A DNA stretch of 64,000 nt from Lichenicola cladoniae (GTDB lineage: Bacteria > Pseudomonadota > Alphaproteobacteria > Acetobacterales > Acetobacteraceae). Shown here piece after piece: positions 47,989 to 57,723 of this stretch; position 1 is the stretch's first letter; each line of letters opens with the position of its first letter. The translations under genes were made by a program, and so were the position numbers. The stretch is from contig NZ_CP053708.1 in NCBI RefSeq assembly GCF_013201075.1, positions 1,119,501-1,183,500 on the forward strand, in the 5' to 3' direction. The notes under the pieces are model-generated. The model saw only the letters and a program-made list of their open reading frames with translations. It had not been told where the DNA came from and searched no databases.

Positions 47989-49062
47989 TCAGGCCGCGCC
48001 GGGCTGGTCGTGCAGCATCGTGTGGATGAAGCCGAGCTTCTCCCGCACCAGGCGGGAGATCACGAACGGATACAGGTCGGACAGCCCCATGCTGCGGTTC
48101 AGGCTGTTCATCGCGAACACCAGCGGCACCCACTGGTCGATGATCCGGTCCATGCTGATGGCGGCATACGGATCGATGGCGATTTCGACCTCCAGCCCCT
48201 CGGCGTGCGGCACCGTCGGTTTCACGTCCAGCCCGAAGGCGCTGGCGGTCTCCAGCGTGTCCATGATGTGCAGGTAGTGCGCCCAGGTCTCGGCGAAATC
48301 CTCCCACGGATGGCTGGTCGCATACGCGCTGATGGTGCGCTCCTGCCAGTCCGGCGCCGGGCCGTTGGCGTAGTGCCGTTTCAGCGCCTGCGCATAGTCG
48401 GCGCGCTCGTCGCCGAACAGGCTCCGGAAGGCTCCAACCCGGTTCTGATCGCGCACCAGCCGGTCCCAGATCCAGTGCCCGACCTCATGGCGGAAATGTC
48501 CGAGCAGGGTGCGGTAGGTCTCGTGCATCCGGTGACGCATCTCCTCGCGGTGTGCGTCGTCGGCTTCCTGCACATTGATGGTGATGACGCCGTCCTCGTG
48601 CCCGGTCAGGATCTTCGGCCCTCCCGGCAGCGGGTCGAGGAAGTCGAACACCAGACCCTCGGCAGGGTCGTCGATCCGGTTCGGCAGCGGGATGCCGAGC
48701 CGGATCAGCGAATAGAACAGCCGGTGCTTGGCAATCTCGAGGCGCTGCCAGAGCAGCACGGTATGGTCGTTGCCGAGGCCGGGGATGATCCGGTTATGGC
48801 GGCAGGCAGCGCAATAGGTCTCGGCCGCTTCCGCATCGACCAGCCAGTTGCAGGCGTCCCGTCCGGCATTCTCGCAAAGCCGCACCCGCGCGTTGGCCGC
48901 CCCCATCGCCTCGTATACGTCGGTGCTGCCGTCTCCGGTAATGATCAGTGCCGAGATCGTTGCCTGATGCGGCAGGTAGCCGAGCGCCATGCCACACTGA
49001 TCGCAGAAGCGGTTTTCGAAGAACAGCAGGTTGCCGCAGTTCTGGCAGTTGAACAGCTTCAT
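47989..49062 (-). CDS. Zinc-ribbon putative metallopeptidase (Peptidase_Mx type)
   Basis: 357 residues from ATG 49062 (MKLFNCQNCGNLLFFENRFC). Two CxxC pairs (Cys6/9 and Cys20/23) form a zinc ribbon; further Cys residues at 63, 71, 84 and 87 may form a second site. The catalytic motif is HEVGH (residues 192-196), followed by WEDFAETWAHYLHI with a possible third ligand. Proteins of this class often lie near transglutaminase/DUF2126 clusters, which agrees with the gene at 42752. The substrate is unknown. Confidence 0.85.
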   Translation of the reverse strand: MKLFNCQNCGNLLFFENRFCDQCGMALGYLPHQATISALIITGDGSTDVYEAMGAANARVRLCENAGRDACNWLVDAEAAETYCAACRHNRIIPGLGNDHTVLLWQRLEIAKHRLFYSLIRLGIPLPNRIDDPAEGLVFDFLDPLPGGPKILTGHEDGVITINVQEADDAHREEMRHRMHETYRTLLGHFRHEVGHWIWDRLVRDQNRVGAFRSLFGDERADYAQALKRHYANGPAPDWQERTISAYATSHPWEDFAETWAHYLHIMDTLETASAFGLDVKPTVPHAEGLEVEIAIDPYAAISMDRIIDQWVPLVFAMNSLNRSMGLSDLYPFVISRLVREKLGFIHTMLHDQPGAA

Positions 49063-49254
49063 CGGGTCATCCTGGCGGGCTGCGGATGCCGCGTCATGCT
49101 GAATAACGCACCGGCAGGACGCCGGGTCCCGTATTGCGCCGGTTGCAGAACCGGGCGCCAATCCGCAACCACGCGCATCCAACCGGCGGCTGGCGCGTTG
49201 GCGCGCCCAAGAGGTCGATCAATCATGGTCGGCACGAAGTGAGAGTATCAGTAC

Positions 49255-49878: not shown

Positions 49879-50680
49879 TTACCGGTCGATCAGGATGGCC
49901 CGGAAATCATTGACGTTGGTGCGGGTCGGACCGGTCACGAACAGCGCCCCGATCTGCTCGAATGCATTGCCGGATGAGTGTCCGGCCAGATCCTGCCCGG
50001 GGTCGATGCCCGCCTGCCGCGACCGGGTCACGGTTCCACTATCGATGAAGGCGCCGGCCCCGTCGTTGGCCCCGTCGATCCCGTCGGCATCGGCGCTCAC
50101 CAGAGCGAAGTCGGTGTTGCGGCCAACCGGCCGCATGGCCCGGTCACGGTAACGGTCGTTTCGCCACCGGACAGCAGCAGGGTGATCAGCCGGGCAGCTG
50201 CCACCGGCCGCGCGAGGCGCAGGCCCTTGATGCCCGAAACATGCTTGCGAAACAGGTTCATGTCCGAGATCGGCAGTCCGCTGCCAGCAAGCTACGGTTG
50301 AACGCCTGCTCGTCGTCCAGCGTCAGGTCCCCGGCCGGTGCCGGCAGCAGCGCCGAGCTGCCGCCGGAAATCAGCGCGACTATCAATTCGTCGGCGGTCA
50401 GGCCGGACACGAAGCCGAGCAGCTGTCGCGACGCGGCCAGGCCAGCCTCGTCCGGCACCGGGTGGGCGGCCTCCAGCACCCGGATGCGGCGGTACGGCAC
50501 GCCGTAGCGGGTGACCACGAGGCCTTCCGGCGGATGCGGCCATGCATCGTCGAACGCCTGCGCCATGGCGGCCGCTCCCTCGCCGGCGCCGATGACGATG
50601 GTGCGACCGCGCGGCGGATCGGGCAGCCAGGCCGGAACGATCCGCGCCGGGTCCGGAGCGGCGACGGATGTCTCGAACAC
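49879..50680 (-). pseudogene. Decayed glycerate 2-kinase (MOFRL family)
   Basis: Three out-of-frame pieces, in order on the minus strand, together resemble a MOFRL glycerate kinase. Piece 1 (about 50680-50290) has RTIVIGAGEGAAAMAQAF, LVVTRYGVPYRR and LISGGSSALLPAPAGDLTL. Piece 2 (about 50290-50140) has SGLPISDMNLFRKHVSGIKG and then LLLSGGETTVTVTGP. Piece 3 (50136-49879) has ALVSADADGIDGANDGAGAF and ends VTGPTRTNVNDFRAILI. At least two frameshifts are visible. About 150 residues are missing between the middle blocks and a smaller gap lies in the C-terminal domain. The N-terminus is also short. It would have phosphorylated D-glycerate. Confidence 0.87.
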
Positions 50681-50789
50681 CTATGTAATCAGCAGCCTGG
50701 GCTCGGCGACGCTCATGGTCCCCGTGGTCGCGTACTAGGTCTGCCGGATGCAGAGTGCCGGGCCTGCACACGGACGCACGCTTCAGGCG

Positions 50790-51299
50790 CTACTCGAAAC
50801 GGCAGGGTTTCCCGGTCTGTGGGAGGTCCATCATCTGGACGATCATCAACGATACCGGGACGGAGCCCGGATTGCGGGCCAGGTGACCCTTGTGCCCGGC
50901 CGCGTCCGCCCTGGCGTGCTGGTCTTCGCCCACGACGATTTCGCCGGGACCGACGGTCGCCTGGCTGCCGTCCATCGCCTGCACGAACCAGGTGCCGCTG
51001 ACCGGCATGATCCACTGTATCGCCGGGTTCTCGTGCCAGCCACTCACCCAGCCCGGCGGCTCGACATGGTTCAGGATGGTTTTGGCGCCGGCCTGCTGCC
51101 GATCCCGCCACTCGGGCGTCGCCGGTTTCGAGACACTTTCGAGCGCGAAACGATGCAGCTTGCAGCGCGTCAGGTGGCTGATGCCGGCGCTGTCGGTCCA
51201 GTTGTCCCAGTAGGGGATCTCAGGCGTCGCTGCAGGTGCAATGCGGGTCGTTGCCACGAGCAGCAGGCCCGTGGCGACCGCACCGATCATCCGCCGCAT
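50790..51299 (-). CDS. Exported cupin-domain protein
   Basis: 169 residues from ATG 51299, chosen because translation then begins with a signal peptide (MRRMIGAVATGLLLVATTR, cleavage near APAA). The mature protein has IPYWDNWTDSAGISHLTRC and a cupin-like core WHENPAIQWIMPVSGTWFV, then GPGEIVVGEDQHARADAAG with metal-type His and Glu residues. It is probably periplasmic. It is the gene after the Tat-exported aldo/keto reductase (26 bp spacer). No enzymatic role can be assigned. Confidence 0.72.
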   Translation of the reverse strand: MRRMIGAVATGLLLVATTRIAPAATPEIPYWDNWTDSAGISHLTRCKLHRFALESVSKPATPEWRDRQQAGAKTILNHVEPPGWVSGWHENPAIQWIMPVSGTWFVQAMDGSQATVGPGEIVVGEDQHARADAAGHKGHLARNPGSVPVSLMIVQMMDLPQTGKPCRFE

Positions 51300-51325
51300 G
51301 GGCCGCTCACCGGCGCAGCCCGGTT

Positions 51326-52393
51326 TCAGGCTTCGGTCAGCCATTGCGGATTCTGGTTGGTGCCGTCGAAATGCTCGGTGGTCTTGTAGAGCTCGGTCTT
51401 TCCGGTCATCGCGATCTGCGCGCTGCGGGCCAGCAGCGCCGCACGGAACTCCGGTGTCGGCGGCGAGTAGGTGCGCACCGCCTCGAGCGCCTGGTGCAGG
51501 ATATCCATGCTGTCGATGCCGGTCATCTGGCTGCTGATCGGCAGGCTCATCGGATATTGCAGCATCTGCATCGGCGGCATCACCCGCGACTGCAGGATGA
51601 ACGGGTCGCCGAACGCCTTCATGCCGATGATGCCGGTGCCGCGGGCCACCGCCATCGGCACGACGGTTTTCTCGAAGCTGTCGTAATGCGCGTCCATGAC
51701 GTTGAGCGGCATCTGCACGCTGTCGAAATGGAATCCGTGGCTGTCGGCTATTTCGAACATGCTCGCATGGATCGCCGGACTCTTGTGGCCGGTGAACCCG
51801 ATATAGCGAAGCTTGCCCTGCTCGCGCGCCTTCAGCACCGCCTCGAGCGCGCCACCCTGCGCGAACACCCGCGCCGGATCGTCGGCCCGGATGATCTCGT
51901 GGAACTGCAGCAGGTCGAGATGGTCGGTCTGCAGCCGGGACAGCGAGGTCTCGATCTGGCCCATCGCCGCCTTGGCGGTGCGGCCGTCGATCTTGGTCAT
52001 CAGGAACACGCGCTTGCGGTAACCCTGCTGCGACAGGGCACGTCCGAGCCGGACCTCGCTCTCGCCGTTATTGTAGTCCCAGCAATTGTCGCAGAAGTTG
52101 ATGCCGGCATCGATGCTGGCATGCACCACCCGGATCGCCTCGTCGTTGTTCATGCCGCCGGGCTTGGCGAGATGGTATCCGCCGACACCGACCAGCGACA
52201 CCGCCTCGCCGGTGCGGCCGAGGGCGCGATATTTCATGTCCGGATGCTGCGGGATCGTCGCGGTGACCGTCCCGGGCCGCGGCGTGACGCTGGGTGGTGC
52301 CGCCATCGACGCTGCATCGGCGGTCGCCGTTCCCAGTGCCGCGACAGTGCCGACGCCGGCCGCGACGGTCTTGATGAAATCACGACGATCCAT
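51326..52393 (-). CDS. Tat-exported aldo/keto reductase
   Basis: 355 residues. The N-terminus MDRRDFIKTVAAGVG is a twin-arginine signal (Arg3-Arg4, DFIK), with a hydrophobic region to about residue 28 and a Pro/Thr linker to residue 50. The reductase domain has the complete tetrad: Asp102, Tyr107 (CDNCWDY), Lys134 (MTKIDG) and His165 (FHEI). The enzyme would carry its NADP(H) with it during folded export, as glucose-fructose oxidoreductase does. The gene starts 21 bp after the larB stop, so it is probably cotranscribed with the NPN cofactor genes. It is a paralogue of the enzyme at 56671. Confidence 0.87.
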   Translation of the reverse strand: MDRRDFIKTVAAGVGTVAALGTATADAASMAAPPSVTPRPGTVTATIPQHPDMKYRALGRTGEAVSLVGVGGYHLAKPGGMNNDEAIRVVHASIDAGINFCDNCWDYNNGESEVRLGRALSQQGYRKRVFLMTKIDGRTAKAAMGQIETSLSRLQTDHLDLLQFHEIIRADDPARVFAQGGALEAVLKAREQGKLRYIGFTGHKSPAIHASMFEIADSHGFHFDSVQMPLNVMDAHYDSFEKTVVPMAVARGTGIIGMKAFGDPFILQSRVMPPMQMLQYPMSLPISSQMTGIDSMDILHQALEAVRTYSPPTPEFRAALLARSAQIAMTGKTELYKTTEHFDGTNQNPQWLTEA

Positions 52394-52414: not shown

Positions 52415-53074
52415 TCAGGCAGGCGTCCTGCCCATTACGCCGAGCACCCGCAACGCGGCGCAGGCCGCCCCATATCCATTGTCGATGTTCATCACCGTGA
52501 GACCCGGCGCGCAGGAGGCGAGCATCGCGTCCAGCCCGGCACGCCCGCCGACCGCGACCCCGTAGCCGACCGATGTCGGCACGCCGATCATCACGCCCGG
52601 CAGCAACCCGGCCACCACCGAGGGCAGGGCGGCATCCATGCCGGCCACTACGATGACCACGGCATAGGCGCGAAGTTCATCGACCCGTCGCAGCAGGCGC
52701 CACAGTCCGGCCACGCCGACATCGGTGATCTCGGCAGCAGCATGGCCGGAGAAGCGCAGCGTGCGCACCACCTCGCGGGCTACCGGCACGTCGGAGGTGC
52801 CGGCGGTGACCACGGCGATGTGCCGGCCGGGCCGCAAGGGCGCCGGCTGCCCCTGCCAGGCCGTGCGCGACACCGGGTCGTAGTCGAGCCTGCCTGCGAG
52901 GTCCTCGGGCAGGCCTGCGAACCGTGTCGCGTCGAGCCGGGTGAGGAGCAGGGGCGTCTCCGGCACCGAGCGCAGAATGGCGGCGATCTGGGCTGGCGAT
53001 TTGCCCGAGCAGTAAACGGCCTCGCCGAAACCAATGCGGGCGGACCGCTCGCCGTCGAGCTGGAACTCGCTCAT
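52415..53074 (-). CDS. larB: Nickel pincer cofactor biosynthesis protein LarB
   Basis: 219 residues from ATG 53074, overlapping the larE stop as ATGA; longer open frames upstream are the shadow of larE. The C-terminal two thirds are PurE-like (AVVTAGTSDVPVAREVV, AGMDAALPSVVAGL). Cys188 (MLASCAPGL) corresponds to the Cys that attaches NAD-type dinucleotide in Lactiplantibacillus LarB. It carboxylates and hydrolyses nicotinic acid adenine dinucleotide to give the pyridinium-biscarboxylic acid mononucleotide. Confidence 0.93.
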   Translation of the reverse strand: MSEFQLDGERSARIGFGEAVYCSGKSPAQIAAILRSVPETPLLLTRLDATRFAGLPEDLAGRLDYDPVSRTAWQGQPAPLRPGRHIAVVTAGTSDVPVAREVVRTLRFSGHAAAEITDVGVAGLWRLLRRVDELRAYAVVIVVAGMDAALPSVVAGLLPGVMIGVPTSVGYGVAVGGRAGLDAMLASCAPGLTVMNIDNGYGAACAALRVLGVMGRTPA

Positions 53075-53949
53075 GGCTGTACCGGTTGTGCTGCGTCGGA
53101 GACGGGCCGAAGGAACGCACTGCCGGTCCGGTAGGCAGCGAACCTCAGCGCGCGGGGTGGTTCGCCCGCCTCCGCGACCAAGTCCGAGATCGTATGGCGC
53201 AATGTCGCCTCCAGTCCGTCCTGCACGTCCTGCAGCGAGATCGCATCGAGTTCGATGACCAGCCCGTCGCGACGGACCCGGCAGCGCACTATGCGGCCGT
53301 CGCTGCCGAGACGTGCGGCCACCGACCGCTCCACCGCATGCACCAGTGCCAGCGTCGCCGGCTCGATGAACAGCCCGGTCTCGATCCGGCTGGACAGGCA
53401 GGGCGCCGATGGCAGGTCGGCCAGGTGACCGAGGCCCACGAGCGGCGCGATTCGGCGCAGCGTCGCCTTGGAGATCGCTGCCTCGACGAACGGGTGCCGC
53501 ACGCTGTGCGCGTCCGCCGCCTGCAGGCCCGGCCGGTAGTCGCTCAGGTCGTCGGTATTGGTGCCTGACAGGACCAGCGTGTCCGTCCCGCGCAGGCGCG
53601 TGGCGATCGCCCCATACAGGTTGGTCTTGCAGAAGAAACAGCGGTTCGCCGGGTTGGCGCGGTAGCTCGGATCGTCGAACTCGCCGGCGTCGAAGATCAC
53701 CAGCCGCGCGTCGAGCCCCGCCGCCAGCGCGCGGGTCCGCTCGGTGGCTTCGTGCGGCACCGCCGGCGACGTGGCGTGGTGCAGCGTCAGGCGACCGCCC
53801 AGCACCGGCGCGGCGACGGCCGAGAGCGTCAGGCTGTCGATCCCGCCACTGACCGCGATGGCGACCCGTGGCGCGTCCAGCCCGGCCAGCAGTGCCTGCA
53901 GCCGTCCGAGTGCCGCAACGGGCTCCTGTGTGTCGATCAGCGAGCTCAT
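53071..53949 (-). CDS. larE: Nickel pincer cofactor sulfur transferase LarE
   Basis: 292 residues. The PP-loop ATPase motif is SGGIDS (residues 34-39). The family motif NRCFFCK lies at 102-108, and Cys184 (APCLSSRI) matches the sulfur-donating Cys of sacrificial LarE enzymes. It adenylates and then thiolates the two carboxylates of the LarB product. It overlaps larC upstream and larB downstream by 4 bp each, so all three are translationally coupled. Confidence 0.93.
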   Translation of the reverse strand: MSSLIDTQEPVAALGRLQALLAGLDAPRVAIAVSGGIDSLTLSAVAAPVLGGRLTLHHATSPAVPHEATERTRALAAGLDARLVIFDAGEFDDPSYRANPANRCFFCKTNLYGAIATRLRGTDTLVLSGTNTDDLSDYRPGLQAADAHSVRHPFVEAAISKATLRRIAPLVGLGHLADLPSAPCLSSRIETGLFIEPATLALVHAVERSVAARLGSDGRIVRCRVRRDGLVIELDAISLQDVQDGLEATLRHTISDLVAEAGEPPRALRFAAYRTGSAFLRPVSDAAQPVQP

Positions 53950-55253
53950 GGCTTCGCGTCCTGGTCGTTCGCCATTGCCATCGCCTCGGCCTGCCGGCGC
54001 ACGCGGGTCCGGGTGGCATGACCGGGCAGGCCGAGCAGGTGGTCGGCCTCCGCCTTGCCGGTCCTGCCGTCCGGACGATCCACCAGCTTCACGTCCACCG
54101 ATGCGCCATCGATGGTCATGCGGGCAGTACGGCGCTGCAGCGCCTGGCCCTCCACCAGATGCGTCCGCAGCCCGATCGTCGTGGTTTCGCGGAAGCAGGC
54201 TGCAGTTATCTCGGGAAGCGCGTCCGGTGCCGCGAGAACCTGCACATGCACGGCCATGCGGCCCTTCTTGCCGATCGCCGCCATCTGCATGATGTCGTGC
54301 ACGCCGGGAACGCTCCTGATGCGGTCCAGGCCGGCGGCAAGATCCTCGCCCGACTGGTCGTCGATTTCGAATGCGATCACGCCGAGCGTGCGATGTCCGC
54401 TGGCAATGCCCTGCTGCGCACCGGTCTCCGTCACCAGCACGCGCACGCAGTTGCTGGTGCCCGGCAGGGTTCTGGTGCCGAAGCCGATGCCGCTGCCGGC
54501 CAGGCGTCCGGCCGGCCGGTGGCCGAGCACGCCGCTATCCTTCAGGTAGCGCAGGATCGCCGCTCCGGTGGGCGTGACGCGCTCGCCGGGGATGCCGTCA
54601 TCCAGCATGTCGAACCCCTCAAGCAGCAGCGCGGTCGCCGGCGCCGGTACCGGCATGATGCCGTGCGCGGTCCGGATGCGGCCGGCGCCGAGCGGCAGTG
54701 CCGAAATGCTCCAGCTTGCCGCTCCGATCGCCTCGATCAGCACGGCGGCGGCGACGATGTCGGCAATGGAGTCCGAGGCACCGACTTCGTGGAACGAGAC
54801 CGCATCGGCGGCGACACCGTGGACCCGGCCCTCGGCTTCGGCCAGGACCGTAAAGATCCCGACTGCGACATCGAGGATCGCCGCATCGAGCCCGCTGGCC
54901 AGCAGTCCCGTCCGGATCTGCCGCCATGCGCGATGATCATGTGCATGTTCGTGCCCATGCTCGTGCTCGTGGACATGCTCGTGGTCGTGCCCATGCGTGT
55001 GGCCATGGTCGTGCGTATGATGCCGCTCGGCCGTGGCGGGCGCGTCGGCGGGCCGTCCGTCGGCGCCCTCGACGCGAAAGCGCAGCCCCGCGAGGACGCC
55101 GTCATTATGCGGCAGGACCCGGCACGTCACATCGACCGCCTTCGCCACGGCGATCGTGACAGCGCCTTCGTATTCGGGGAACGCCGACAGCAATGCAGCC
55201 GCGAACATGTCGCCGGCCATGCCGCCGAGCGGGTCGAGATGCAGGTGGATCAT
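53946..55253 (-). CDS. larC: Nickel pincer cofactor nickel insertase LarC, His-rich
   Basis: 435 residues in one uninterrupted frame from ATG 55253 (MIHLHLDPLGGMAGDMF). In Lactiplantibacillus larC needs a programmed frameshift; none is needed here. A loop at residues 78-107 holds 16 His residues mixed with Asp, Glu and Gly, a likely nickel store. The N-terminal part has SFHEVGASDSIADIVAAAV and the C-terminal part TIGLRTHLVEGQALQRR. It inserts Ni2+ into the dithio-mononucleotide using CTP. It leads the larCEB-AKR-cupin unit, 80 bp from the divergent nickel permease gene. Confidence 0.95.
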   Translation of the reverse strand: MIHLHLDPLGGMAGDMFAAALLSAFPEYEGAVTIAVAKAVDVTCRVLPHNDGVLAGLRFRVEGADGRPADAPATAERHHTHDHGHTHGHDHEHVHEHEHGHEHAHDHRAWRQIRTGLLASGLDAAILDVAVGIFTVLAEAEGRVHGVAADAVSFHEVGASDSIADIVAAAVLIEAIGAASWSISALPLGAGRIRTAHGIMPVPAPATALLLEGFDMLDDGIPGERVTPTGAAILRYLKDSGVLGHRPAGRLAGSGIGFGTRTLPGTSNCVRVLVTETGAQQGIASGHRTLGVIAFEIDDQSGEDLAAGLDRIRSVPGVHDIMQMAAIGKKGRMAVHVQVLAAPDALPEITAACFRETTTIGLRTHLVEGQALQRRTARMTIDGASVDVKLVDRPDGRTGKAEADHLLGLPGHATRTRVRRQAEAMAMANDQDAKP

Positions 55254-55333
55254 CGCCCGATGATGGGTAGGTAACCGTGTCTTGTCCACGTTCCGAACTT
55301 GCCCGCGAGCGCCTGCTCGGACAGGCTGTCTCC

Positions 55334-56410
55334 ATGCCGGAATTCCATGACTTGCCCGCTCGTTCCGGACTGCCGCCGTCGCCGACGGCACCTGGGCAGG
55401 CGGTTCGCGCAGGCCCCCAGAAGCGTCGAATTTCCGTGCTGTTCCTCGGGTTGCTCGGGGTCAACCTGCTGGCCTGGTGCTGGGCGGTGCTGGCATTCCA
55501 CGCGTCGCCGGCCCTGCTCGGCTCCGCCCTGATCGCCTGGGGATTCGGGCTGCGTCATGCCGTCGACGCCGATCACATTGCTGCCATCGACAATGTCACG
55601 CGGCGGCTGATGCAGGACGGGCAGCGCCCGATCACCGTCGGCCTGTTTTTTTCGCTCGGACATTCCACCGTCGTGGTGGTGGCGGGACTGGCGGTGGTGC
55701 TGGCGCAGGGCTGGTTCCGCAACCGGTTCGGAGTCCTCGCCGGATGGGGCGCCCCGGCCGGCGCCGCAGTGTCCGCGGCTTTCCTGCTGCTGATCGGCGG
55801 CTCCAACCTGGGCGTGCTGCTGTCGCTGTTGCGGATGCGCCGTCGCCGGCGTCGCGGCGACCCCGACCTGTCGATGGCCCTGCCGACCGCACAGGGCGGG
55901 TTGTCCCGCCTGTTCGCGCCGCTGTTCCGGCGGGTTGGCACCAGCCGTGGCATGTTCTGGCTCGGCCTGCTGTTCGGGCTCGGCTTCGACACCGCGACCG
56001 AGATCGGCGTGCTGGCGCTGGCCGCGGCCGGTGCGACGCATGGCCAGGCCGGCTGGGCGGTGATGGCGTTCCCGGCCTTGTTCACTGCCGGCATGACATT
56101 GGTCGATACCGCCAACGGCGTGATGATGCTGGGTGCATATGGATGGGCACTGGCAGAGCCGACCCGCAAACTCGGCTACAACATGGCCATCACTTCGGTC
56201 TCGGTCGTGGTGGCGTTGCTGATCGGGCTGGCGGAAGCGATCGACCTGCTCAGTATTCCCGGCGTCTCGATCCCGGCCTGGGTGAGCCTCCCGGATACAC
56301 ACGGGGAACTGATCGGCTACGGGCTGGTCAGCAGCTTCGCGCTGCTCTGGATTGGTTCGATGCTCGCCTCGCTCCTGGCGAGACAACGCCGGAAGCTCAC
56401 CCTGCGCTGA
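55334..56410 (+). CDS. NiCoT-family nickel/cobalt permease
   Basis: 358 residues from ATG 55334; a GTG at 55277 would add 19 residues with two Cys but leave only 23 bp to the divergent larC start. The signature HAVDADHI (H75-x4-D80-H81) lies in the second membrane helix. SLGHSTVVV and LGFDTATEIG are the other conserved motifs. A cytoplasmic Arg-rich loop is near residue 175. It imports Ni2+ (or Co2+) through the inner membrane and lies divergent from larC, so nickel is the likely ion. Confidence 0.9.
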   Translation: MPEFHDLPARSGLPPSPTAPGQAVRAGPQKRRISVLFLGLLGVNLLAWCWAVLAFHASPALLGSALIAWGFGLRHAVDADHIAAIDNVTRRLMQDGQRPITVGLFFSLGHSTVVVVAGLAVVLAQGWFRNRFGVLAGWGAPAGAAVSAAFLLLIGGSNLGVLLSLLRMRRRRRRGDPDLSMALPTAQGGLSRLFAPLFRRVGTSRGMFWLGLLFGLGFDTATEIGVLALAAAGATHGQAGWAVMAFPALFTAGMTLVDTANGVMMLGAYGWALAEPTRKLGYNMAITSVSVVVALLIGLAEAIDLLSIPGVSIPAWVSLPDTHGELIGYGLVSSFALLWIGSMLASLLARQRRKLTLR

Positions 56411-56438: not shown

Positions 56439-56633
56439 ATGAAATCCATGGATCGACGCAGCCTGTTTCGAACCGTCGCTGCCACCGGCCTGCCTTGCCT
56501 CGTTGTGGGCACTGCACGCGGCGCCACCGAGACGATCCGATTGGTCCAATTCGAGGGAATCGCATGCAATCCCGACTGGTTCGGCCGGGATCGTGACCCG
56601 ATTCTCGCGCTCGCACCCAAGAACGGCGGCTAA
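56439..56633 (+). CDS. Short ORF with twin-arginine-like start
   Basis: 64 residues, weakly supported. MKSMDRRSLFRTVAATG resembles the Tat signal of the reductase at 51326 (MDRRDFIKTV), but the reading frame stops soon after, without a recognisable domain. There is no good ribosome-binding site. It may be the remnant of a lost exported protein. It lies between the nickel permease and the second aldo/keto reductase. Confidence 0.3.
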   Translation: MKSMDRRSLFRTVAATGLPCLVVGTARGATETIRLVQFEGIACNPDWFGRDRDPILALAPKNGG

Positions 56634-56670: not shown

Positions 56671-57723
56671 ATGCCGGATACACACGACCTCAGCAGTGCG
56701 ATGCTGCCCGTCACCCGCGTTGCCGACCCGGCCGACCTGCCGTTCGTGACCGATCCGGGCGAGCGCCGCGGCGACATGCTGTATCGCCGGTTCGGGCGCA
56801 CCGACGAGATGATCTCGGCGATCGGGCTGGGCGGGTTCCATGTCGGCAAGAGCGCGCTGACCGACGATGAGGCGGTGCACCTGATCCATGAGAGCATCGA
56901 TCGCGGAATCAACTTCGTCGACAATTGCTGGGACTACAACAAGGGGCGATCGGAGCTGCGCGTTGGCGTGGCGCTCGACCAGGGCGGCTACCGGGACAAG
57001 GTTTTCCTGATGTCCAAGATGGACGGCCGCACCAAGAAAGAGGCGGCCAACCAGATCGACGCCTCGCTGCAGCGCATGCGCACCGATTGCATCGACCTGA
57101 TCCAGCATCACGAGATCCTCCGCTACGACGATCCGGATCGGATCTTCGCCGAGGAAGGTGCCATGGAAGCATTCGTCGAGGCGAAGCAGGCCGGGAAGCT
57201 ACGCTATATCGGCTTCACCGGTCACAAGGACCCGCGCATCCACCTGCAGATGCTGGCGGTGGCTGCCGAGCGCGGGTTCCATTTCGATGCCGTGCAGATG
57301 CCGCTGAACATCATGGATGCACATTTCCGCAGCTTCGCACATCTGGTGCTGCCGTATCTGGTCGAGCACGGCATCGCGGTGCTCGGGATGAAGAGTTTCG
57401 GCGACGGCGTCCTGCTGAAAAGCAACGCGCCGATCGACCCTCTCGAATACCTGCACTACTCGCTCAACCTGCCGACCTCGGTGGTCATCACGGGGATCGA
57501 GAACCGTCGCGATCTCGACCAGGCCTTCAAGGCCGTCCGGACCTTCCAGCCGATGGACAAAGTCCGTGTTTCCGAGTTGCTGGCCCGCAGTCGCCCCTAT
57601 GCCCTGGAGGGCAAGTACGAACTCTTCAAGACCAGCGCGACGTTCGACGGAACTGCAAAAAATGCTGAGTGGCTCGGTGACGATGTAGACGCCGTCAATT
57701 TGCTGGCACCCGTCATGGAATGA
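56671..57723 (+). CDS. Aldo/keto reductase (cytosolic paralogue)
   Basis: 350 residues from ATG 56671 with AGGAG (56659-56663) upstream. A 30-residue non-signal N-terminus precedes the TIM-barrel. The tetrad is complete: Asp84, Tyr89 (VDNCWDYN), Lys116 (MSKMDG) and His147 (QHHEI). It shares distinctive stretches with the enzyme at 51326, such as LRYIGFTGHK and FDAVQMPLNIMDAHF, so the two are paralogues. It lacks the Tat signal and should be cytosolic. It lies downstream of the nickel permease in the same direction. The substrate is unknown. Confidence 0.89.
   Translation: MPDTHDLSSAMLPVTRVADPADLPFVTDPGERRGDMLYRRFGRTDEMISAIGLGGFHVGKSALTDDEAVHLIHESIDRGINFVDNCWDYNKGRSELRVGVALDQGGYRDKVFLMSKMDGRTKKEAANQIDASLQRMRTDCIDLIQHHEILRYDDPDRIFAEEGAMEAFVEAKQAGKLRYIGFTGHKDPRIHLQMLAVAAERGFHFDAVQMPLNIMDAHFRSFAHLVLPYLVEHGIAVLGMKSFGDGVLLKSNAPIDPLEYLHYSLNLPTSVVITGIENRRDLDQAFKAVRTFQPMDKVRVSELLARSRPYALEGKYELFKTSATFDGTAKNAEWLGDDVDAVNLLAPVME

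Follow-up and report, generated by a model that had tools for sequence, protein, structure and literature searches.

Organization of the lar locus

The stretch of Lichenicola cladoniae DNA analysed here (64,000 nucleotides at its full length, hereafter the window) contains open reading frames in the order larC-larE-larB-akr-cupin on the minus strand. The products of the first three genes each scored above their NCBIfam cut-offs, which identifies the run as a locus for biosynthesis of the nickel-pincer nucleotide (NPN), a cofactor. LarC (larC, 53946..55253) was recognized by both TIGR00299 and NF052512 and likely starts at ATG 55253 (MIHLHLDPLGG), LarE (larE, 53071..53949) matched TIGR00268 with 218.5 bits (cut-off 150), and LarB (larB, 52415..53074, ATG at 53074) matched NF033503 with 245.4 bits (cut-off 175). 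Neighboring lar genes overlap by 4 bp at both larC/larE and larE/larB, and a gap of 21 bp separates larB from the gene of an aldo/keto reductase (AKR) of 355 aa with a Tat signal, hereafter AKR1 (51326..52393). A pattern search found no promoter-like or terminator-like sites in the larB–AKR1 or AKR1–cupin intervals, in agreement with the original prediction for this locus, which tied the reductase to the nickel-cofactor genes and set a separate promoter and terminator between larB and the reductase against that tie.

Divergent from larC is the gene of a NicT/HoxN-type nickel transporter (55277..56410, plus strand; PF03824, 260 bits), which scored 298 bits with TIGR00802, below the cut-off of 333.05; a NicT-type nickel transporter also adjoins larC at locus L024. 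Further along the plus strand lies AKR2 (56671..57723, ATG 56671), a paralog that has no Tat signal and is 53% identical to AKR1. Between the transporter gene and AKR2 sits a remnant, AKR3 (56448..56633, plus strand), in which a Tat N-terminus is fused in frame to the C-terminal tail and the catalytic body is absent; intact AKR3 copies are present at the loci of relatives (L022, L072 and L073). AKR1, AKR2 and AKR3 fall into separate, fully supported groups of the family tree, and this lar cluster holds three AKR clades, one of them (AKR3) as a remnant.

The last gene of the minus-strand run (50790..51299) encodes a small cupin-like protein, whose N-terminus, MRRMIGAVATGLLLVATTRIAPAA, appears signal-peptide-like by eye. 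Its Cupin_2 score of 21.9 bits is under the Pfam cut-off of 27.2, its AF2 model has a pLDDT of 41.6, and no PDB match was found at E 0.1. A cupin with a signal peptide had been predicted to follow the reductase, and the gene is indeed present, but ATG 51299 is a likelier start than the predicted 51344 because the ortholog at L074, 70% identical, begins at the equivalent Met. Among the four AKR1-carrying genomes of the genus, the gene occurs in this one (G000) and in G004, which carries L074, and not in G001 or G003. It was not found by tblastn in L023, L024, L028, L029 or L030, nor in the other 79 of the 80 AKR-family loci searched. We therefore reject the idea that the cupin is a conserved partner of the AKR, since in these searches no AKR1 apart from those of this genome and G004 had the gene alongside. 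Its occurrence in two genomes of the genus only gives it the appearance of an accessory rather than an integral partner.

Export signal, fold and NAD(P) positions of AKR1

The ATG of AKR1 has a Shine-Dalgarno-like AAGGGA upstream, and the encoded N-terminus (MDRRDFIKTVAAGVGTVAALGTATADA), beginning MDRRDFIKT, combines a twin-arginine motif with a hydrophobic stretch, as in Tat substrates. The motif RRx[FLMVIW] with a subsequent run of 12 or more uncharged residues was present in 68 of the 81 family copies from 79 loci. The remaining 13 copies comprise five with RR and a shorter uncharged run, two of AKR2 type, one cut by a contig end and five without RR; no clear Tat motif was seen in AKR2 or in the copy of G022. 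Judged from sequence, a Tat-type N-terminus is the rule in this family, AKR2 excepted, and is more than chance. Tat export of AKR1 is supported to that extent, but what had been taken for an oddity of this reductase is a trait of its family.

The sole Pfam match of AKR1 at E 0.001 is Aldo_ket_red (PF00248; 99.7 bits, cut-off 24), covering profile positions 2–199 of 291 only; Lar_N (PF09861) gave no match. The catalytic tetrad D102, Y107, K134 and H165 is invariant in all 74 aligned family members, confirming the intact tetrad that had been predicted; the coordinates given for the AKR gene are right as well. Also invariant in the 74 rows are H74, W105, H203, K204, H209, K259, Q301, A302, K337, D343 and T345. 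The AF2 model built with this 74-row alignment is an AKR (beta/alpha)8 barrel (mean pLDDT 89.6, pTM 0.87). Comparison of model residues 50–343 with solved structures placed L-galactose dehydrogenases at the top, with 7smi at Z 32.9 and an rmsd of 2.2 Å over 276 aligned residues (25% identity). AKR1 has its barrel fold in common with 7smi, 7svq and 9w6y, all of L-galactose dehydrogenase type, and with AKR11C1 (1ynp, Z 30.0), some of which were solved with NAD or NADP. At about 25% identity, it differs from these enzymes in its Tat signal, in a conserved KT..FDGT..NP.WL tail and at several of the usual NAD(P) positions. The top PDB sequence match to the family profile was 9yeb_A ('Oxidoreductase', 291 aa; E 1.1e-37), which shares with AKR1 the TGH, a Lys (there after Ile) and a residue other than Asn at position 302, but has no DNCWDYN motif.

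The nine other AKRs of the same genome served as the reference for the NAD(P)-anchoring positions. In AKRs, the S-N pair meets the amide of the nicotinamide. AKR1 has T-G, then H-K, where seven of the nine reference AKRs have S-N, and M-K replaces the W/Y-S of the W/Y-S-P stretch that is present in 9/9. An acidic residue occupies position 294 in all but one of the 74 rows, whereas the reference AKRs have a basic residue there in 5/9 and an acidic one in 0/9, and residue 302 is Ala in 74/74 (Asn in eight of the nine, Ala in one). The idea that a Glu-Asn adenine-binding pair had been swapped for Gln-Ala was weakened, as position 301, Gln in AKR1, varies among the nine (E in three, D in three, then T, Q and A) and only Asn 302 is regular (8/9). 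The conservation of TGHK is partly selected, because 57 of the alignment rows were chosen by two patterns, GFTGHK[SD]P, which contains it, together with [IL]DLx[QM][FH]HE[IV][IL]. Among 12 cyanobacterial members found without a pattern, TGHK is present in 11 and SGHK in the twelfth, and residue 302 is Ala in eight, Asn in three and Thr in one. More distant Tat-AKRs share part of the NAD(P)-position changes as well; since TGH and the Lys after Met or Ile are seen in 9yeb or in such distant Tat-AKRs, and 9yeb has no Asn at 302 either, the changes are not specific to lar-linked members. Several of the residues that usually hold NAD(P) thus appear to be changed in AKR1, which may nonetheless bind NAD(P) by another route.

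Association of the AKR family with NPN biosynthesis genes

AKR genes of this family lie beside lar genes in Alpha- and Betaproteobacteria, Acidobacteriota, Cyanobacteria and Planctomycetota, and the four nearest orthologs of AKR1 (79–83% identity) are likewise so placed. Lar genes were found within 5 kb at 21 of 80 AKR loci, a lower bound as contig ends hide further cases, and all of them are on the strand of the AKR. The linked loci comprise six from Acetobacteraceae, twelve from Acidobacteriota, two from Nostocales and one from Phycisphaerales; in the Nostocales and Phycisphaerales, LarC alone was seen among the lar genes. Consistently, when neighbors were clustered without prior naming of lar genes, LarC (18 of 76 loci), LarB (14) and LarE (11) came out on top. 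The order larC-larE-larB-akr recurs on a Paraburkholderia plasmid, where the AKR is only 52% identical; the other four plasmid AKR matches have no lar genes within 8 kb. In an 81-row tree, in which long outgroup branches meet and the root is a midpoint only, the lar-linked label (25 rows) changes nine times, with at least eight changes forced by well-supported branches, compared with 21.9 in shuffles. The Acetobacteraceae AKR1 clade is sister to one acidobacterial, mostly lar-linked clade with support of 95/78, below the starred level of the tree.

Co-occurrence across genomes gave the same picture. The 150 Acetobacteraceae genomes searched include 20 with LarC, 14 with Lar_N and nine with the AKR family (E<=1e-60). 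All nine AKR-carrying genomes have LarC, against the base of 20/150 (Fisher p 2e-9 by genome and 3e-7 by genus, kinship being handled by the genus count only), and in each the AKR is on the same contig as larC and within ~1.7 kb of it; the contig of G004 holds larE, larB and the end of larC. The same AKR-lar arrangement is present in G001 and G003, which are outside the 150-genome sample. Beyond Acetobacteraceae, LarC was found in 46 of 49 AKR-carrying genomes; these derive from 50 of the 80 AKR loci, five of which were already lar-linked within 5 kb. The three genomes with no detectable LarC (G181, G213 and G220) are metagenome-assembled records. Of 397 Pseudomonadota, two carry the AKR, namely this genome and G658, and in each of them LarC is encoded next to it, at a base of 40/397.

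In 283 cyanobacteria, the AKR was found at E<=6e-72 in 12 genomes, all 12 of which have LarC (base 183/283, p 0.005). At E<=1e-30, where more distant Tat-AKRs are included, LarC was present in 21 of 21 AKR-carrying genomes. Genome size is a confounder here, many of the LarC-less genomes listed being small. Of the 183 cyanobacteria with LarC, 171 lack the AKR family at E<=6e-72. As only 12/183 carry it, we rejected the AKR as a general cyanobacterial NPN client, and most cyanobacterial NPN is therefore not explained by it. The AKR implies LarC and the converse fails, a pattern expected of a cofactor client and not of a biosynthesis step. The link to the nickel-cofactor locus is thus stronger than originally claimed, with co-occurrence and operon-like adjacency extending across phyla.

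LarA is a less regular companion of the AKR. Lar_N was undetected in five of the nine AKR-carrying Acetobacteraceae (G004, G021, G022, G118 and G135), and the 49 other genomes divide into 12 with a strong match (>=180 bits), 20 with a weak one (24–83 bits) and 17 with none. LarC is kept in 22/22 of these AKR-carrying genomes without detectable LarA (5/9 and 17/49), where LarA-less denotes no Lar_N match at all, so that a very divergent LarA could escape. Within LarC-containing Acetobacteraceae, LarA absence does not differ significantly between genomes with the AKR (5/9) and those without it (3/11; p 0.36). The latter three genomes (G068, G091 and G149) have LarC without a Lar_N match or an AKR at E<=1e-60, and a further NPN client may therefore exist.

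We also considered that acidobacterial AKR-carrying genomes lack LarA, and rejected this as first drawn because weak Lar_N matches and divergent LarAs are present. Divergent LarAs lie beside six acidobacterial AKR loci (L090, L097, L103, L110, L117 and L151), and in all six the NPN and catalytic positions of LarA (Asp, Arg, His, Lys and His) are retained; R75, K184 and H200 are the NPN residues of LarA given in PMC7583248. The divergent LarA of L097, the one scanned, scored 46 bits with Lar_N. Because the NPN positions are kept, those acidobacterial genomes have another NPN client. Surveys with the Pfam model may undercount LarA in Acidobacteriota.

A candidate NPN-dependent enzyme outside the LarA family

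The genomic association suggests that AKR1 is an NPN-dependent, Tat-exported enzyme, a reading that we tentatively prefer to a carrier of NADP resembling glucose-fructose oxidoreductase. NPN binding, actual export, the reaction and the substrate of AKR1 are inferred. In the proposed mechanism, NPN would be made in the cytoplasm by LarB, LarE and LarC, encoded just upstream of AKR1, and this pyridinium mononucleotide would occupy the place of nicotinamide in the AKR barrel. Loading would take place in the cytoplasm, and the folded holoenzyme would then be exported by Tat. NPN would accept a hydride from the substrate and subsequently return it, so that a periplasmic hydroxy acid or sugar could be isomerised or epimerised in a redox-neutral way. 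Such a reaction would be possible there, where NAD(P)H is not supplied, because NPN returns its hydride. The altered NAD(P) contacts and the intact tetrad are compatible with mononucleotide NPN, although such a tetrad would also suit chemistry that depends on NAD(P).

Slightly more tentatively, the AKR barrel could represent a second enzyme fold for NPN, holding NPN in place of NAD(P), folding in the cytoplasm, exported by Tat and performing self-contained periplasmic hydride chemistry as a non-LarA NPN protein. By genomic association, AKR1 has the tie to the larBCE pathway in common with the LarA (lactate racemase) superfamily; the two are different families (PF00248, not PF09861) with different folds.

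Among exported redox enzymes, glucose-fructose oxidoreductase is the model of one that takes its cofactor along; it is a member of the GFO_IDH_MocA family, whereas AKR1 matches Aldo_ket_red alone in Pfam. The main alternative, only somewhat less likely in our view, is that AKR1 works in a similar manner, as a Tat-exported AKR that keeps NAD(P)(H) tightly bound and performs periplasmic redox of sugars or sugar acids, while a cytoplasmic LarA-type epimerase handles the product. The intact tetrad agrees with this, as do the closest solved folds, the L-galactose dehydrogenases solved with NAD or NADP, but several usual NAD(P) positions of AKR1 are changed. Gene content suits such a pathway at six acidobacterial loci, which hold an SDR, a small P-loop kinase, in our reading a gluconokinase, and a divergent LarA keeping the NPN positions, and at the LarA locus of the present genome, with its MOFRL glycerate-kinase-type gene, sugar ABC transporter and 2-hydroxyacid dehydrogenase. 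However, the LarA-less AKR-carrying genomes (5/9 and 17/49), all 22 of which keep LarC, are left unexplained, and the genes that the AKR adjoins serve NPN synthesis, the cluster of the present genome holding three AKR clades. The dinucleotide that had been predicted to travel through Tat as in glucose-fructose oxidoreductase found no direct support, given the replaced NAD(P) residues and a genomic tie to NPN synthesis. Were the AKR NAD(P)-dependent after all, that tie would still need explaining.

It is unlikely that the family acts on NPN itself, to process or repair it through, for example, reduction or oxidation of the pincer or a precursor, with the export signal serving another role. Operon-like adjacency to lar genes and the presence of the Tat-less AKR2 at the same locus would suit such a function, whereas most copies are of Tat type (68/81) and NPN synthesis is cytoplasmic; moreover, no member at E<=6e-72 is present in 171 of 183 LarC-containing cyanobacteria. 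A correlation by chance or lifestyle, in which soil bacteria with large genomes commonly have both gene sets and have inherited their adjacency, is very improbable: soil Acidobacteriota or Nostocales account for many of the 80 records, the Acetobacteraceae AKR1 and the mostly lar-linked acidobacterial clade are sisters (95/78) and the Fisher tests account for phylogeny by genus count only, but at least eight label changes on the tree, lar genes on the strand of the AKR at every linked locus and a strong association inside one bacterial family argue against it.

If AKR1 is read as NPN-dependent, the AKR family becomes a candidate for the NPN enzyme outside LarA that has so far been missing, and one that is named, testable and backed by gene order and co-occurrence in several phyla. 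If the AKR binds NPN, it would be, to our knowledge, the first non-LarA NPN enzyme. Nickel-pincer chemistry would then extend outside the cytoplasm, and the working of a hydride enzyme in a place without NAD(P)H would be accounted for. The question of cyanobacterial NPN in general would not be settled even so, as 12 of the 183 LarC-containing genomes carry the family.

In its accessible part, PMC11796402 describes non-LarA NPN proteins as 'yet-to-be-identified' and thus states them as an open question; it also reports a mass gain of 450.2 Da for LarA. Literature searches, with most subscription journals outside their scope, found no paper linking nickel-pincer with an aldo-keto or keto reductase. 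The term 'aldo' is absent from the accessible parts of PMC7583248 and PMC11770544, the corresponding part of PMC12611868 has no passage naming a reductase, and that of PMC7037312 names larB, larC and keto reductase together as a list of gene abbreviations only. Searches by title or term likewise found no literature on a twin-arginine or periplasmic aldo-keto reductase, including an acidobacterial Tat signal. What is new, within the reach of these searches, is the tie between the AKR and lar families, themselves already known, and the proposed use of the cofactor.

Beyond the cupin-like gene, the window holds a glycerate 2-kinase (DUF4147/MOFRL) remnant at 49888-50704 (minus strand), which spans three frames and misses about 90 residues, and at 47989-49182 (minus strand) a protein with a zinc-ribbon and a putative metallopeptidase (Peptidase_Mx). 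An intact paralog of the kinase remnant (L031:6767-8053, minus strand) is beside LarA elsewhere in the genome. That LarA, the only Lar_N match of the genome, is far from larBCE and belongs to a cluster at L031:6767-17004 (minus strand) with the MOFRL kinase-type gene, a full-length AKR, a sugar ABC transporter and a D-2-hydroxyacid dehydrogenase, which likely forms a hydroxy-acid epimerase pathway.
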